From positions 1 through 64,000 of the forward strand of contig CANRSX010000004.1 of the NCBI GenBank assembly GCA_947642555.1: a DNA stretch of 64,000 nt, read 5' to 3'. Origin of the DNA: an uncultured Roseburia sp. Lineage in GTDB: Bacteria; Bacillota; Clostridia; Lachnospirales; Lachnospiraceae. Positions 16,865-22,082 of this stretch are shown here, piece by piece (the first letter of the stretch is position 1; each line of letters opens with the position of its first letter). Both the position numbers and the translations under genes were made by a program. The notes under the pieces are model-generated. The model was not told the DNA's origin, made no database searches, and worked only from the letters and a program-made list of their open reading frames with translations.

Positions 16865-18016
16865 TTATGCCTGCCTATTCTTTTTTTTGTGTTTCTCCTC
16901 GTACATGCGGCTGTCCGCCGTCTCAACCAGCTGCTGCGTATTTGTGACCGCCGCCTCCTCCCACGACGCATAGCCGACGCTTAAGGAAATCTCCCACGGC
17001 CTTCCGTCCGCCCAGCTCATCATCGCGACTCCGTCCTTCAGCTTTAAGATCCTGGCCTCCAGCTGTTCCTTTGTCTCATCGCGCAGGACAATCACAAATT
17101 CGTCCCCGCCGTAGCGTGCCAGAAACGACCGTGAGGCGCCAAACACTTTTTTCATCTGATCCGCCACCTGGCGCAGAACCACATCGCCTTCCACATGTCC
17201 GTAGGTATCGTTGATCTTTTTAAACTTATCGACATCCATCAGAACAAAATAACAAAGTCCCTCTCCCCAGCTCTGCGCTTCCAGTTCGCTTAAGTACTGG
17301 TTTAAGCGTCTCCTGTTATTCAGCCCGGTCAGGGAATCTCTCGTCACCTGATTCTGCTGCCCGTAAATGTGGATCAGCAAAAGCGACGCCGTGGTCAGCG
17401 GCAGGATCAGCTCCGTCCCGTAAAAAAGGATCTGCAGGATCGTTCCGCACAGCGGCAGCACGACGAACCCGGCAAGCCAGTGATACTGCCTGCGCTTTTC
17501 CTCCGAGCTCTCCCTGCGGCAGCCGTTCAGCGCCAGCGCAGACGCCGCCAGCAGATACGCAACGGAAACCCCGGAATGTACCAGGTAAAACGTCCCCCTC
17601 ACATACTGGTTTTCCTCATTGATATCATAAATCAGCCTGGTCCATGGATTGGACAGCACGACCGCCATCATACACATCATCGGAACTGACGTGAGAATGA
17701 CAAATCCTCTCTCCGCCCGGTCCTTATTTCCCACAACCCCGTACACGTAAAAAAACCACAGCAGCGCCACCAGCTCGAGCGTCAGAAAGTGCAGCGTGTT
17801 TAAAATATACAGGATCAGCCGCGTCCCCGGAAACATCCGTCCGTCCATCATCCAGGCCATTGTGTTGATCACCATGACCAGCGCAAGCAGGATCATCGTC
17901 TGGCGCAGGACACGGTTATGCCAGGTAAAAGACGGGGTCTTTCCCATGTTTACCCACACCATAACCAGTGCAATCACCGGCACCAGATGCACCTGCAGAT
18001 ATGTCAGTGCACTCAC
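16865..18016 (-). CDS. membrane GGDEF diguanylate cyclase (copy 1)
   Basis: A 383-residue protein. Residues 1-220 are largely hydrophobic with about seven membrane helices and form a membrane sensor. Residues 225-380 are a GGDEF domain (DSLTGLNNRRRLNQYL at its start, active-site loop RYGGDEFVIV). It should make cyclic di-GMP. I see no RxxD inhibitory site nine residues before GGDEF, so product inhibition may be absent. It has the same architecture and closely similar sequence as the next gene upstream and begins 16 bases after that gene's stop, so the pair looks like a tandem duplication in one operon. Confidence 0.9.
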   Translation of the reverse strand: MSALTYLQVHLVPVIALVMVWVNMGKTPSFTWHNRVLRQTMILLALVMVINTMAWMMDGRMFPGTRLILYILNTLHFLTLELVALLWFFYVYGVVGNKDRAERGFVILTSVPMMCMMAVVLSNPWTRLIYDINEENQYVRGTFYLVHSGVSVAYLLAASALALNGCRRESSEEKRRQYHWLAGFVVLPLCGTILQILFYGTELILPLTTASLLLIHIYGQQNQVTRDSLTGLNNRRRLNQYLSELEAQSWGEGLCYFVLMDVDKFKKINDTYGHVEGDVVLRQVADQMKKVFGASRSFLARYGGDEFVIVLRDETKEQLEARILKLKDGVAMMSWADGRPWEISLSVGYASWEEAAVTNTQQLVETADSRMYEEKHKKKNRQA

Positions 18017-18032: not shown

Positions 18033-19187
18033 TCACAACGCCCCCGCTGCCTCTTTCTTTTTCTGTTTTTCTACATACATCCGTTCATCCGCCTGATCCA
18101 CAAGGCGCTCGGGTCTCTCATGCGTCACCTCGCGCCACAGCGCATAGCCGATGCTTAAGGAGATCCGGTAATCCCGTTTCGTCTCCTGATTAAAGCGTGT
18201 GACCTCACGGTTAATGCGTGTGATGACACCCTTCGCTTCCCGTTCATCCCGAAAATCGTCGATCACGACAAATTCGTCCCCGCCATAGCGCGCCAGAAAT
18301 GCCCGCTCGCGCCCGAACGTGCGCCGCAGGATCCCGGCAGTCTCCCTTAGCGCCTCATCCCCCACGACATGTCCCAGATTATCATTGATCCACTTAAAAT
18401 CATCAATGTCAATCATGAGCATCCCCCACATCTTTCCCGCAGGCTGATCCGCTCTCCGGTGCAGCTCCTGGTCAAACCGCCGGCGGTTGCTAAGCCCGGT
18501 CAGGCCGTCTGTCGTGATCTGATGATTCTGGCGGTTTAAGTAGAGCCAGAGAACCGCAAGCGAGACGGACGGCGCGGCAAACCACCAGCTTTCCCAGAAA
18601 TATTCCGCGCTGACGCCGGCAAGGATGCCGAGACTTAACCAGAAAAACTGGCTCTCTTCCGCACGGTGATCCCGGATCGCCTCATGGCTGTACAGATACA
18701 GCGAAATCCCCATGCACTCTGCAAGAAACAGCGCGCAGAAAAGCCATGACAGCCACCATCCGGGGCCCCGCCCAAAGCCGCTCTCCGATCTTCCGAACAG
18801 CAGACCGCTCCACGGGGTTGTCACCGCCAGCAGAAAAAAAAGAGCAAAAAGTACGGAAGAAATCCGAAGCACATGCTGTCTGAGCTGTTTATGTCCGCCG
18901 GTGAACAGGCGGTTGCACACACAGAGCAGCCAGGTTCCCGTCATCGTCACGGCGGACAGCGCCTGCAGTATGTACGGAATCCACAGAAACGGTCCCGCAG
19001 TCCATCCCGCGCCGGTCAGGCTGCTGATCAGAATATTTACCAGCATCAGCCCGATCGAAATCAGCGCCAGAACCCCTAACAGCCACTTATCCGCCGTTCT
19101 CGTTATCTTCTTCTCATTGTCCATCCAGATAATGAGGAGAATAATAATCGGGAACAAATCTATACTCAGATGGGTCAATACATCCAT
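18033..19187 (-). CDS. membrane GGDEF diguanylate cyclase (copy 2)
   Basis: A 384-residue paralogue of the 16865-18016 protein, also with a seven-helix-like N-terminal membrane region and a C-terminal GGDEF domain (DGLTGLSNRRRFDQELHRR, DIDDFKWINDNLGHVVGDEALR, RYGGDEFVVID). No RxxD inhibitory motif is seen before GGDEF. The membrane parts of the two copies have diverged more than the catalytic parts, which suggests different input signals. This is the first gene of the pair. The 69 bases upstream to leuA are AT-rich and include minus-strand TATAAT-like sequence. Confidence 0.9.
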   Translation of the reverse strand: MDVLTHLSIDLFPIIILLIIWMDNEKKITRTADKWLLGVLALISIGLMLVNILISSLTGAGWTAGPFLWIPYILQALSAVTMTGTWLLCVCNRLFTGGHKQLRQHVLRISSVLFALFFLLAVTTPWSGLLFGRSESGFGRGPGWWLSWLFCALFLAECMGISLYLYSHEAIRDHRAEESQFFWLSLGILAGVSAEYFWESWWFAAPSVSLAVLWLYLNRQNHQITTDGLTGLSNRRRFDQELHRRADQPAGKMWGMLMIDIDDFKWINDNLGHVVGDEALRETAGILRRTFGRERAFLARYGGDEFVVIDDFRDEREAKGVITRINREVTRFNQETKRDYRISLSIGYALWREVTHERPERLVDQADERMYVEKQKKKEAAGAL

Positions 19188-19256: not shown

Positions 19257-21251
19257 TTATTGATATTTTCTGCGGAACTGTACCGGCGTCATCTCGTACG
19301 CTTTCTTAAACAGCCGGTTAAAATGCTCCACATTCTCATATCCTACATATGCCGCGATGGATTCCACCGTCTGATTCGTCTCCTTTAACATGGTGCGCGC
19401 CTTTTTCATCCGCGCCTTTTTCACCGCATCCTGGAAGGTCAGCCCGGATTTTTCTTTGATATACTTGGAAAGGTACGGCTTGGAAAGGCCGAAATTCTCC
19501 GCAAGCACGTCTAACGTCACGTCCGTATAATGGTTCTGAATATAGTTCATGATATCGACAATGCGCTCCTCCCGGCCCTCGACAATATTCTCGCTTTTCG
19601 CCAGCTTGTTCGCCGCCGTCGCAAGCGCCGCGATGGAGCTCGCGATGATGTCCTCGTCAATCCCCACGCCCCAGTAGTGCCTGCCCTGGCAGAGAATCTC
19701 CACATAAGCCGCGGCCTTTGAGGATGAGCCTGCCGAGATCGCATGCTCCTCATAGGTGGAGAGCTCATAGCTCACGCCGAAATACATCTTGATCGCATTG
19801 CTCACCGCATCCAGCCGTCCGTTTCCGGCGGTCTCGATCACCCGCCGCTCTTTATTCTGCTCAATCGTCACCCGGGCGGTAATCCCGTTCTTCTGCTCGA
19901 AATGGCATTCCGGGATATGGAACACGTCCCTGACATCCACATAATGCTCCTCGAAAATACGGTAAATCGCCTCCGGCGCGAGCTCCTGATGGCGGCGGTC
20001 CGACACGCCCTTGATCAGGTATCCGACCTCCTCCTTCATCTTATCCGGCAGGGAGATCCCAAAGTTCTGCTTTAAGATAAAGGCGACGCCGCCCTTTCCG
20101 GACTGGCTGTTGATGCGGATGACATCCGACTCGTACTCTCTCCCCACATCCTTCGGATCGATCGGAAGATACGGCACATCCCACCGCTCCCCGCTTTTTC
20201 CCGCCTCTCTCCAGGCCATGCCCTTTGAGATCGCGTCCTGGTGAGAACCGGAAAACGCGGTAAACACCAGATCGCCCGCGTACGGGGTCCGCTCATAGAC
20301 CTTCATGCCGGTAAACTGCTCATATTTTTCCCTGATATGAGAAATATCGGAAAAGTCAAGCCCCGGCTCCACACCGTGGCAGAACATGTTCATCGCAACC
20401 GTGACCAGATCGACATTGCCGGTGCGCTCTCCGTTTCCGAACAGCGTCCCCTCGACCCGGTCCGCCCCCGCGAGGATCCCGAACTCCGCGTCGCTGATGC
20501 CGCAGCCCCGGTCATTGTGCGGATGGACGCTCAAGATCACGCTGTCCCTGTATTTTAAATGCTTGTGAATATACTCGATCTGGCAGGCGAATACATGCGG
20601 CATCGCGATCTGCACTGTGGTCGGGATATTGATGATCGCCTTGTGCTGCGGGTCAGGCTTCCACACGTCAAGCACCGCGTTGCAGACCTCGACCGCGTAG
20701 TCCACCTCTGTCCCCGGAAAGCTCTCCGGGCTGTACTCAAAGGTAAAATTCCCTTCCGTCTCCTCCGCCAGGCTCTTTAAGAGCACGGCGCCGTCCACTG
20801 CCAGCTGCTTTACCTCTTCCTTACTCTTTTTAAAAACCTGTTCCCGCTGCGCTACGGATGTCGAATTGTATAAATGAACCACCGCGTGCGGCGCGCCCTT
20901 AACCGCCTCAAAGGTCTTCCGGATGATATGCTCCCTGGCCTGGGTGAGCACCTGCACCGTCACATCGTCCGGTATCATATCCCGCTCGATCAGCGTGCGC
21001 ATAAAATTGTACTCCGTATCGGAAGCTGCCGGGAATCCGACCTCGATCTCCTTAAATCCGATGTCGACCAAAAGCTGAAAGAACTCCACCTTCTCCTCAA
21101 GCCCCATCGGCTCAATCAGCGCCTGGTTGCCGTCCCTTAAATCCACGCTGCACCAGACGGGCGGTTTCTCGATGGTGTCCTTCTTCACCCAGTCATAGGT
21201 TACCTCCGGCGGCATAAAGTATGATTTTCCGTATTTCTCTGCTACGTTCAT
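19257..21251 (-). CDS. leuA: 2-isopropylmalate synthase fused to an AraC-type DNA-binding domain
   Basis: A 664-residue protein in one uninterrupted frame. Residues 1-555 are a yeast-type (long form) LeuA. They hold metal and substrate motif [10 protein letters not shown] (residues 36-45), HPHNDRGCG with the HxH metal ligands, NGERTGN, and a C-terminal LeuA dimer/leucine-sensing domain ([27 protein letters not shown] to [17 protein letters not shown]). Residues 560-664 are a full AraC/XylS double helix-turn-helix ([20 protein letters not shown] and [22 protein letters not shown], ending TPVQFRRKY). The enzyme condenses acetyl-CoA with 2-oxoisovalerate for leucine synthesis. The added domain suggests a leucine-sensing enzyme that also binds DNA. 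No other leu genes are nearby. The upstream region holds palindromes suited to such a regulator. Confidence 0.92.
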
Positions 21252-21290
21252 CTGTTCCTCCTGAAACCTGCTTTCCTGTTATATCCGTAT

Positions 21291-21336
21291 TGACAAATAT
21301 TTGTCAGCTGCCCGGATGTGATCCGACCACATACGG
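21291..21336 (-). promoter_or_regulatory. palindromes in the leuA-araC leader
   Basis: TGACAAATATTTGTCA (21291-21306) is a perfect 16-bp palindrome. Beside it, CCGGATGTG and CACATACGG (21312-21320, 21328-21336) form a second inverted repeat with one mismatch. Both lie 40-85 bases before the leuA start. They could be operator sites or RNA stem-loops. Confidence 0.55.
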
Positions 21337-21431
21337 AATAATTCAAGAAAGTTGATTTTTGATATTGTCACCGTCTATACTATCATACCATCCCGCCAAT
21401 TGCAAGGTGCGTTTTTATCAATCTTATTGAT

Positions 21432-22082
21432 TTATTTTGTCTTTTTCCCCAATCCTTTCTTTGCGCACAGATCCGAGAGACAGCACACCTCGCAGTGCGG
21501 CTTTGTCCGTGCCGTGCAGACCTCCCTGCCGTGATCCACAAGGCGATGGCAGAAATCATTGGTCTCCTCCGGCGGCAGAATCTTCCACAGCGCCATCTCC
21601 ACCTTTTTGGGCTCTTTTATCCCGTCCACAAGCCCCATGCGGTTCACGAGGCGGATGCAGTGCGTGTCCGTCACCACCGCAGGTTTGCCGAACACATCCC
21701 CCATCACAAGGTTGGCGCTCTTTCGCCCAACCCCCGGAAGCGAGAGCAGCGCGTCGAAATCCTCCGGCACCTTTCCCTCGTATTCATCCCGCAGGCGTTT
21801 CATGCAGGCGCTGATATCCCGCGCCTTGCTGTGTCCGAGCCCGCAGGGCTTTACGATCTCCTCGATCTCCTCCACCTCCGCTTCCGCGAGGGCATTAACG
21901 TCGGGAAATTTTTTATACAGATCCTGCACCACAATATTTACCCTTGCATCCGTACACTGGGCCGCAAGACGCACGCTGACCAGAAGCTTCCACGCATCGT
22001 CGTAGTCCAGGGTGCAGCCGGTATCCGGGTATTCCTCCTTTAAGCGCGCGATGATCTGCTTCGCCAGCTCCTTTTTTCTCAT
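21432..22082 (-). CDS. nth: endonuclease III
   Basis: A 216-residue DNA glycosylase/AP lyase for oxidised pyrimidines in base excision repair. It shows the helix-hairpin-helix LPGVGRKSANLVMG with the catalytic Lys, the catalytic Asp in VTDTHCIRLVNR, and the C-terminal iron-sulfur cysteines (CTARTKPHCEVCCLSDLC, C-x6-C-x2-C-x5-C type). ATG 22082 is chosen because GGAGG lies 6 bases upstream. An earlier ATG at 22094 is possible. It is a stand-alone gene behind glgD and its terminator. Confidence 0.93.
   Translation of the reverse strand: MRKKELAKQIIARLKEEYPDTGCTLDYDDAWKLLVSVRLAAQCTDARVNIVVQDLYKKFPDVNALAEAEVEEIEEIVKPCGLGHSKARDISACMKRLRDEYEGKVPEDFDALLSLPGVGRKSANLVMGDVFGKPAVVTDTHCIRLVNRMGLVDGIKEPKKVEMALWKILPPEETNDFCHRLVDHGREVCTARTKPHCEVCCLSDLCAKKGLGKKTK

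Follow-up and report, generated by a model that had tools for sequence, protein, structure and literature searches.

Can an enzyme of leucine biosynthesis also control transcription of its own gene? The question is raised by a locus of an uncultured Roseburia sp. (assembly GCA_947642555.1, contig CANRSX010000004.1, positions 1 to 64,000; this whole stretch of 64,000 nucleotides is referred to as the window), in which leuA runs into the coding sequence of an AraC-type DNA-binding domain. An earlier note, made from the sequence alone, had proposed that the product could be a trigger enzyme (a class defined in a passage of PMC8249747) that senses leucine and regulates genes directly. Comparison across related genomes leads us to a similar reading. 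With a probability of roughly three in four, this 2-isopropylmalate synthase is bifunctional and acts on the gene that encodes it as a transcription factor of the AraC type.

Domain organization of the fusion protein

The leuA-araC fusion gene (19257..21251, minus strand, as for all window coordinates below unless stated otherwise) is a single open reading frame with ATG start, coding for 664 amino acids without any internal stop. Pfam profiles recognise an HMGL-like (TIM-barrel) catalytic domain at residues 32-307 (20331..21158, 228 bits), the post-catalytic domain IPMS_D2 at residues 327-394 (20070..20273, 117 bits) and the allosteric leucine-binding domain LeuA_dimer, a relative of leucine-bound 3fig, at residues 423-550 (19602..19985, 90 bits). 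A variable linker (residues 551-562, 19566..19601) leads to an AraC-type double helix-turn-helix (HTH) at residues 563-661 (19269..19565); HTH_18 covers residues 583-661 (78.2 bits, cut-off 33.6) and HTH_AraC residues 625-661 (44.9 bits, cut-off 26.6). Since HMGL-like, IPMS_D2, LeuA_dimer and the AraC-type HTH all exceed curated Pfam cut-offs, the protein belongs by domain content to both the LeuA and the AraC/XylS families. The NCBIfam model NF002991 (2-isopropylmalate synthase) matches residues 16-549 with 799 bits, the cut-off being 455. Judged from its sequence, the protein is a complete M. tuberculosis-type LeuA to which an AraC double HTH is joined through some 12 residues. The earlier note had read it in the same way, as a complete LeuA with its regulatory domain, and had placed the AraC part (residues 560-664, about 19257-19574) correctly in one open frame.

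Among solved structures, residues 26-519 are closest to M. tuberculosis LeuA (1sr9, 3fig), and the final 100 residues to AraC-type domains. An AlphaFold model has seven helices in 562-663, with mean pLDDT of 82-90 per 10-residue block across 551-660; the predicted recognition helices of the HTH span residues 591-602 and 641-652. Over the whole model pLDDT is 71.7, the catalytic part being modelled poorly because the alignment was shallow (20 rows), and among the 50 matches listed in a PDB fold search with this model only LeuA-like and other TIM-barrel proteins appear. Residues R39, D40, H243, H245, N273 and G274, which we take to belong to the catalytic motifs of 2-isopropylmalate synthase, are invariant in all 20 of 20 sequences. 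When 105 different fused proteins, drawn from 110 distinct loci, are aligned, the linker is the least conserved segment (mean entropy 1.89; 0 of its 12 columns 97% conserved). Conservation in both halves of the HTH (1.00 and 0.85) is similar to that in LeuA_dimer (0.92) and lower than in the catalytic domain (0.45).

Besides the fusion gene, profile search of the same genome gave two further HMGL-like hits. Since the hit on contig C11, adjoining an acetaldehyde-dehydrogenase-like frame, reads by eye as 4-hydroxy-2-oxovalerate aldolase, and that on contig C1 covers profile positions 115-258 only, the fusion is apparently the sole 2-isopropylmalate synthase of this genome (assembly 96% complete).

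Genes neighbouring the fusion on the same strand are, by eye, nth-like and GGDEF-like; two adjacent GGDEF-like membrane proteins (16865-18016 and 18033-19187) are encoded directly downstream of it. Elsewhere in the window, a TPP riboswitch (Rfam RF00059; 43480-43598, plus strand) scores 54.9 bits, barely above the gathering score of 54.3.

Distribution of the fusion

A survey across Lachnospiraceae, suggested in the earlier note, found the fusion to be conserved: a LeuA match runs through the HTH in at least 89 of the 397 family genomes searched, of which 88 loci, the present one included, were compared (G214 was left out). Further, the 80 best-scoring of 321 confirmed named loci, hence a biased pick, are fused in frame without exception (80/80). 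They come from Roseburia, Eisenbergiella, Acetatifactor, [Clostridium] symbiosum, Lachnoclostridium and further Lachnospiraceae. In-frame fusion is thus conserved over 168 loci (80 named and 88), some of them from identical or close species, and this rules out both chance fusion and a sequencing error that joined two genes. With it goes the concern, raised in the earlier note, that a stop might be hidden between the domains.

Two loci carry an AraC HTH directly behind leuA in another frame (identity 63% in L125 and 46% in L138), in L138 after a run of A8; the operator described below still precedes leuA in both. Recent splits, sequencing indels or frameshifting are candidate readings.

Among the matches listed from 391 genomes of the class, three fusions lie outside the family (G607, G471 and G609, from two other families). 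G607 and G471 also hold an unfused LeuA with 51-52% identity. Occurrence of a fused (L308, L309) beside an unfused LeuA is likely due to horizontal transfer of the gene together with its operator.

Candidate operator upstream of leuA

When upstream regions were read, a repeated element before the promoter was spotted, the probable operator TAAAATAAATCAATAAAATTGATTAAAA. Its predicted copy in the window, site 1 (CAAAATAAATCAATAAGATTGATAAAAA), lies at 21412..21439 and scores 34.6 bits. The exact pattern ATCAAN5TTGATNAAA occurs once in the 5.0-Mb genome, at the fusion gene, and the chance expectation of the 25-mer with at most 3 mismatches in the window is 0.01.

For a 28-column matrix, 61 sites of the named set (80 loci) served as training data; the remaining loci were then scored with it. 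A site of at least 10 bits within 450 bp was found in 73 of 87 other fused loci versus 3 of 42 loci classed as unfused (shuffles 0.5%), some test loci being near-copies of training loci (upstream regions are identical in L006/L084, L007/L076, L008/L091, L009/L108 and L010/L098). In one of the three "unfused" site-bearers, L124, the contig stops within the HTH; the other two are L125 and L138 with their HTH frame behind leuA.

The candidate operator is partly palindromic, which counts against an AraC-type binder, as sites of that family are usually asymmetric. Two other identities were considered and rejected. The FNR box is TTGATN4ATCAA, and the element has these half-sites in reverse order. 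A general AT-rich promoter element would not be absent at 39 of 40 HTH-less loci, nor would its exact matches be confined to HTH-bearing genomes.

The leuA leader in the window (21290-21340) contains a perfect 16-bp palindrome TGACAAATATTTGTCA within a CCGTAT/ATACGG inverted repeat. By eye, the leader of L034 is without such a palindrome.

Promoter geometry and second site

In the window, site 1 is followed by a predicted -35 hexamer TTGCAA (21400..21405) and a predicted -10 hexamer TAGTAT with TG extension (21377..21382), both at the same offset as in relatives. A TANNNT -10 is present at offset 57-59 from the first base of the site in 132 of 149 leuA sites, versus 5.4% of 4160 random upstream positions. 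The TG extension accompanies it in 129 of these 132 sites, and their -35 is weak, with on average 3.4 of 6 matches to TTGACA. The -35 begins at offset 34-36 in 97 of 152 sites, which leaves about 7 bp between the end of the site and the -35. Such location is typical of AraC-type activators. Because the geometry is fixed and the -35 weak, activation is favoured.

A second copy of the site (at least 6 bits) was detected in 67 of 145 loci (shuffles 1.3%), and 33 of the 67 are spaced 72-77 bp from site 1, which corresponds to about seven helical turns. The helical phase over all second sites (R=0.35, n=67) is given little weight since the loci are related. The window itself has a weak second copy (21337..21364, 2.5 bits) 75 bp downstream of site 1, just past the predicted transcription start, and its counterpart is strong in many relatives.

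Instead of activating, leucine-bound LeuA-AraC might occupy the positions by the -35 and past the -10 and block RNA polymerase. Autorepression of this kind would agree with end-product repression, the usual logic for leuA, and with second sites that lie past the predicted start in many loci and, where they are about seven turns from site 1, suit a closed loop. We consider it a serious but unlikely alternative, since site 1 stands at a fixed distance from the -10 and before a weak -35 as expected for an activator, the second site was not found in more than half of the loci, and promoters of leuB, ilvB and leuC are found with this geometry too (see below).

Association of the site with the HTH

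Upstream regions of 900 bp were compared in the 206 loci for which 250 bp or more of upstream sequence was available; this set includes the three fusions from other families and two unfused paralogues. HTH and site occur together in 156 loci, 10 have the HTH only, 39 have neither, and the site alone is found in one (L151; 16.8 bits and, by eye, far from consensus). As the loci share ancestry, these large counts are not independent, and a test on the tree is the fair measure. A FastTree phylogeny of 210 LeuA parts contains seven independent pairs on supported branches in which one member has the HTH and the other has not. On average, site and HTH change together in 6.7 of the 7 pairs and in opposite directions in 0.0 (p has a median of 0.016 and a range of 0.016-0.125). 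The fusions outside the family score 22.7, 21.6 (in reverse orientation) and 33.2 bits for the site; around unfused LeuA paralogues the best scores are 0.8 (G607), 6.3 (G471) and, in two members of the family, 0.0 (G022) and 5.8 (G108).

Since its presence and absence track the HTH, the site very probably marks control of the gene by the enzyme it encodes. By sequence, an enzyme and a DNA-binding domain are united in one chain, and comparison places the candidate site at the leuA promoter and, in some genomes, at leuB, leuC and ilvB. The gene-regulation part of the trigger-enzyme proposal gains strong comparative support from the 206 loci. It is further backed by the fixed promoter distance, by the site found with fusions outside the family and by changed DNA-contact positions in four of the ten site-less fusions.

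Could the site be bound by a separate regulator that merely co-occurs with the fusion? An operator alone does not tell which protein binds it, the motif is partly palindromic, and some fused loci are without it, six of them having a normal HTH. Nevertheless, such a regulator is improbable: the site goes with the fusion in other families and not with unfused LeuA of the same genomes, loss of the HTH in separate branches coincides with loss of the site, and those four site-less proteins combine altered contact positions with a normal LeuA part.

A T-box sequence, which we take to be GGTACCGCG, is present upstream of 30 of 40 HTH-less versus 43 of 166 HTH-bearing loci, a difference that is not significant on independent pairs (median p 0.5). 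It is absent from 123 of the 166 HTH-bearing loci, and 37 have both this sequence and the site. No T-box leader was found in the window at the Rfam gathering threshold.

Conservation of putative DNA-contact positions

DNA-contact positions of the HTH were assigned by presumed analogy with MarA. Putative contact positions 592, 593, 595, 596, 642, 643 and 646 are kept in 148-155 of 155 operator-bearing loci, and position 641 in 145 of 155. Contact residues, whose loss was another concern of the earlier note, are kept in nearly all orthologues that bear the site. In site-bearing loci a median of 0 (mean 0.71) of 34 key HTH residues are changed; the highest values are 11 in L194, which keeps the site despite these differences, and 8 in the split L138.

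The ten HTH-bearing loci without site fall into two kinds. Six have a normal HTH with 0-2 of the 34 key residues changed. In the other four (L092, L101, L103 and L209), 11-17 of 34 are changed, contact positions included, and the LeuA part is normal. These four have a T-box sequence upstream and no operator; decay and a new DNA target are candidate readings.

Ratios of dN/dS in the HTH are 0-0.07 in 15 of 17 hand-picked pairs, 0.18 in L092-L103 and not computable in one pair; they are rough because many dS values exceed 1. Together with the kept contact positions they point to purifying selection on the HTH, the same four loci aside. That the HTH is a passive passenger, or a purely structural or protein-contact domain, as these four loci with their retained domain, changed contact positions and missing site might suggest, is very improbable in view of purifying selection elsewhere and of the coupling to a promoter site.

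Genome-wide specificity and further targets

Genomes were scanned with the degenerate 27-base pattern TAAAAWANATCAANNNNNNTGATNAAW. There are 41 exact matches in 118 genomes, distributed over 39 of 74 HTH-bearing genomes and absent from the 44 without the fusion; 40 lie at leuA and one at leuB-ilvD-ilvB. Twenty fused and 18 other genomes, the latter picked for best LeuA match scores below any complete fusion, gave 11 exact matches in 10 fused genomes (10 before leuA, 1 before leuB-ilvD-ilvB). A set of 52 fused, 2 split and 26 HTH-less genomes gave 30 in 29 HTH-bearing genomes and none in the 26 HTH-less ones, and all 30 are located at most 900 bp upstream of leuA (positions compared by hand). 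No exact match occurs in 35 of the 74 HTH-bearing genomes, and the leuA site of the present genome has one mismatch. Looser matches are also found without the fusion, with one mismatch in 5 of 26 genomes and with two mismatches in 14 of 18. Matches with 2-3 mismatches in the present genome were discarded as noise, since five stretches (L236-L240) have no promoter geometry.

All matches with 0-1 mismatch outside leuA were fetched except G306:C11, G317:C63, G262:C2 and G112:C3, along with some two-mismatch and own-genome matches picked by eye; genes were named by eye from translations. Promoter geometry was judged in 41 stretches, two of them leuB loci, each at its best matrix site. The leuA-like geometry is present in 9 of 41, and 6 of these are at leu/ilv genes: leuB-ilvD-ilvB (G341), leuB (G068 and G017), ilvB-ilvN (G191) and leuC-leuD (G207 and G216). 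It was not found in the other 32, four of which come from HTH-less genomes. Outside leucine synthesis, the same geometry is seen with 25-30 bits at folD (G191, L228), trpB (G282, L233) and amtB (G380, L289), where the site sits between gltD-like and amtB-like genes.

Among leuC promoters, a score of at least 20 bits is reached in 1 of 26 fused genomes and in none of the 11 HTH-less ones, where the best value is 13.7; of the 45 genomes searched, 8 had distant LeuC matches only and were left unscored. The same holds for leuB in 2 of 22 fused and 0 of 8 HTH-less genomes (best HTH-less 14.9). A leuB match in G156 (L292) was rejected for its wrong orientation and lack of promoter geometry. Since leuC and leuB promoters rarely bear the site, a general leu/ilv regulon is dismissed; self-regulation appears as the core role and extension as sporadic. 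The earlier note had envisaged a search for sites shared by leu, ilv and own promoters. This idea holds mainly for the own promoter; at leu and ilv genes the site is sporadic, and neither leuC nor leuB of the present genome was found to have it.

Proposed mechanism

Comparison across loci provides the fusion, the site, the fixed promoter geometry and the coupling of the site to the HTH; from these we infer how the protein could act. The HTH would bind the 28-bp site about 7 bp upstream of the weak -35 of a promoter with TG-extended -10 and, when leucine is scarce, the leucine-free dimer would activate leuA. Leucine entering the LeuA_dimer pocket, beside the HTH, would inhibit the enzyme and by the same event alter the paired DNA-binding domains. 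In the leucine-bound form activation would end or, where a second site is present about 74 bp downstream, the two sites would be bridged and the promoter shut. This bridging is a guess modelled on AraC. Leucine is the likely natural signal because the domain order puts its pocket next to the DNA-binding domain; substrates could signal instead. The site has also spread, in certain lineages, to leuB-ilvD-ilvB, leuC-leuD and ilvB-ilvN.

A broader reading, to which we give even odds, joins these points. One leucine pocket would shut both enzyme and gene. The feedback-inhibited first enzyme would sense leucine and serve as its own activator of the AraC type, in many gut Lachnospiraceae without the T-box leader that is common where leuA is unfused. 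With sites about 6-7 helical turns apart, the promoter could be switched in the manner of AraC from activation to a closed loop and back, and the regulon would now be spreading to leuB, ilv and leuCD promoters.

If true, nature would have provided a minimal feedback device that uses a single pocket for both allosteric inhibition and gene control. Its occurrence in many related gut bacteria would allow one to trace how a regulator with a single main site is gained, lost and rewired, and to test how trigger enzymes evolve. For these organisms, the leuA promoter would be at hand as a candidate leucine-responsive promoter.

Comparison with known systems

No description of a LeuA-AraC fusion was found among the open-access papers searched, judged by titles and abstract starts; the passages of PMC9026213 and PMC5171806 that were consulted make no mention of it. 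PutA, which according to a passage of PMC8249747 acts only on the putA-putP spacer, as well as BirA and NadR, similarly combine an enzyme and DNA-binding ability in one chain and control genes of their own pathways. These proteins differ in enzyme, DNA-binding fold and pathway, and PutA and BirA are repressors, whereas LeuA-AraC stands at the committed step of the leucine pathway, which is feedback-inhibited, and the geometry of its site suggests activation.

LeuA of the M. tuberculosis type (1sr9, 3fig) has the same three enzyme domains, with 44-45% identity across some 550 aligned columns, and has been solved in leucine-bound form (3fig), but is without the AraC domain. T-box control of leuA likewise tunes amino-acid genes to supply, but is RNA-based. 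Ada also unites enzyme activity, that of a methyltransferase, with an AraC-type HTH in one chain; it is a suicide repair protein and not an allosteric biosynthetic enzyme.

AraC belongs to the same double-HTH family and joins a ligand domain to the DNA-binding domain. It uses a site just before the -35 plus a second distant site, as found in part of the LeuA-AraC loci. The ligand domain of AraC is a cupin, whereas LeuA-AraC has a complete catalytic enzyme with its allosteric domain. Unlike in AraC, the second site of LeuA-AraC loci lies mostly after the -10, and the site is partly palindromic.
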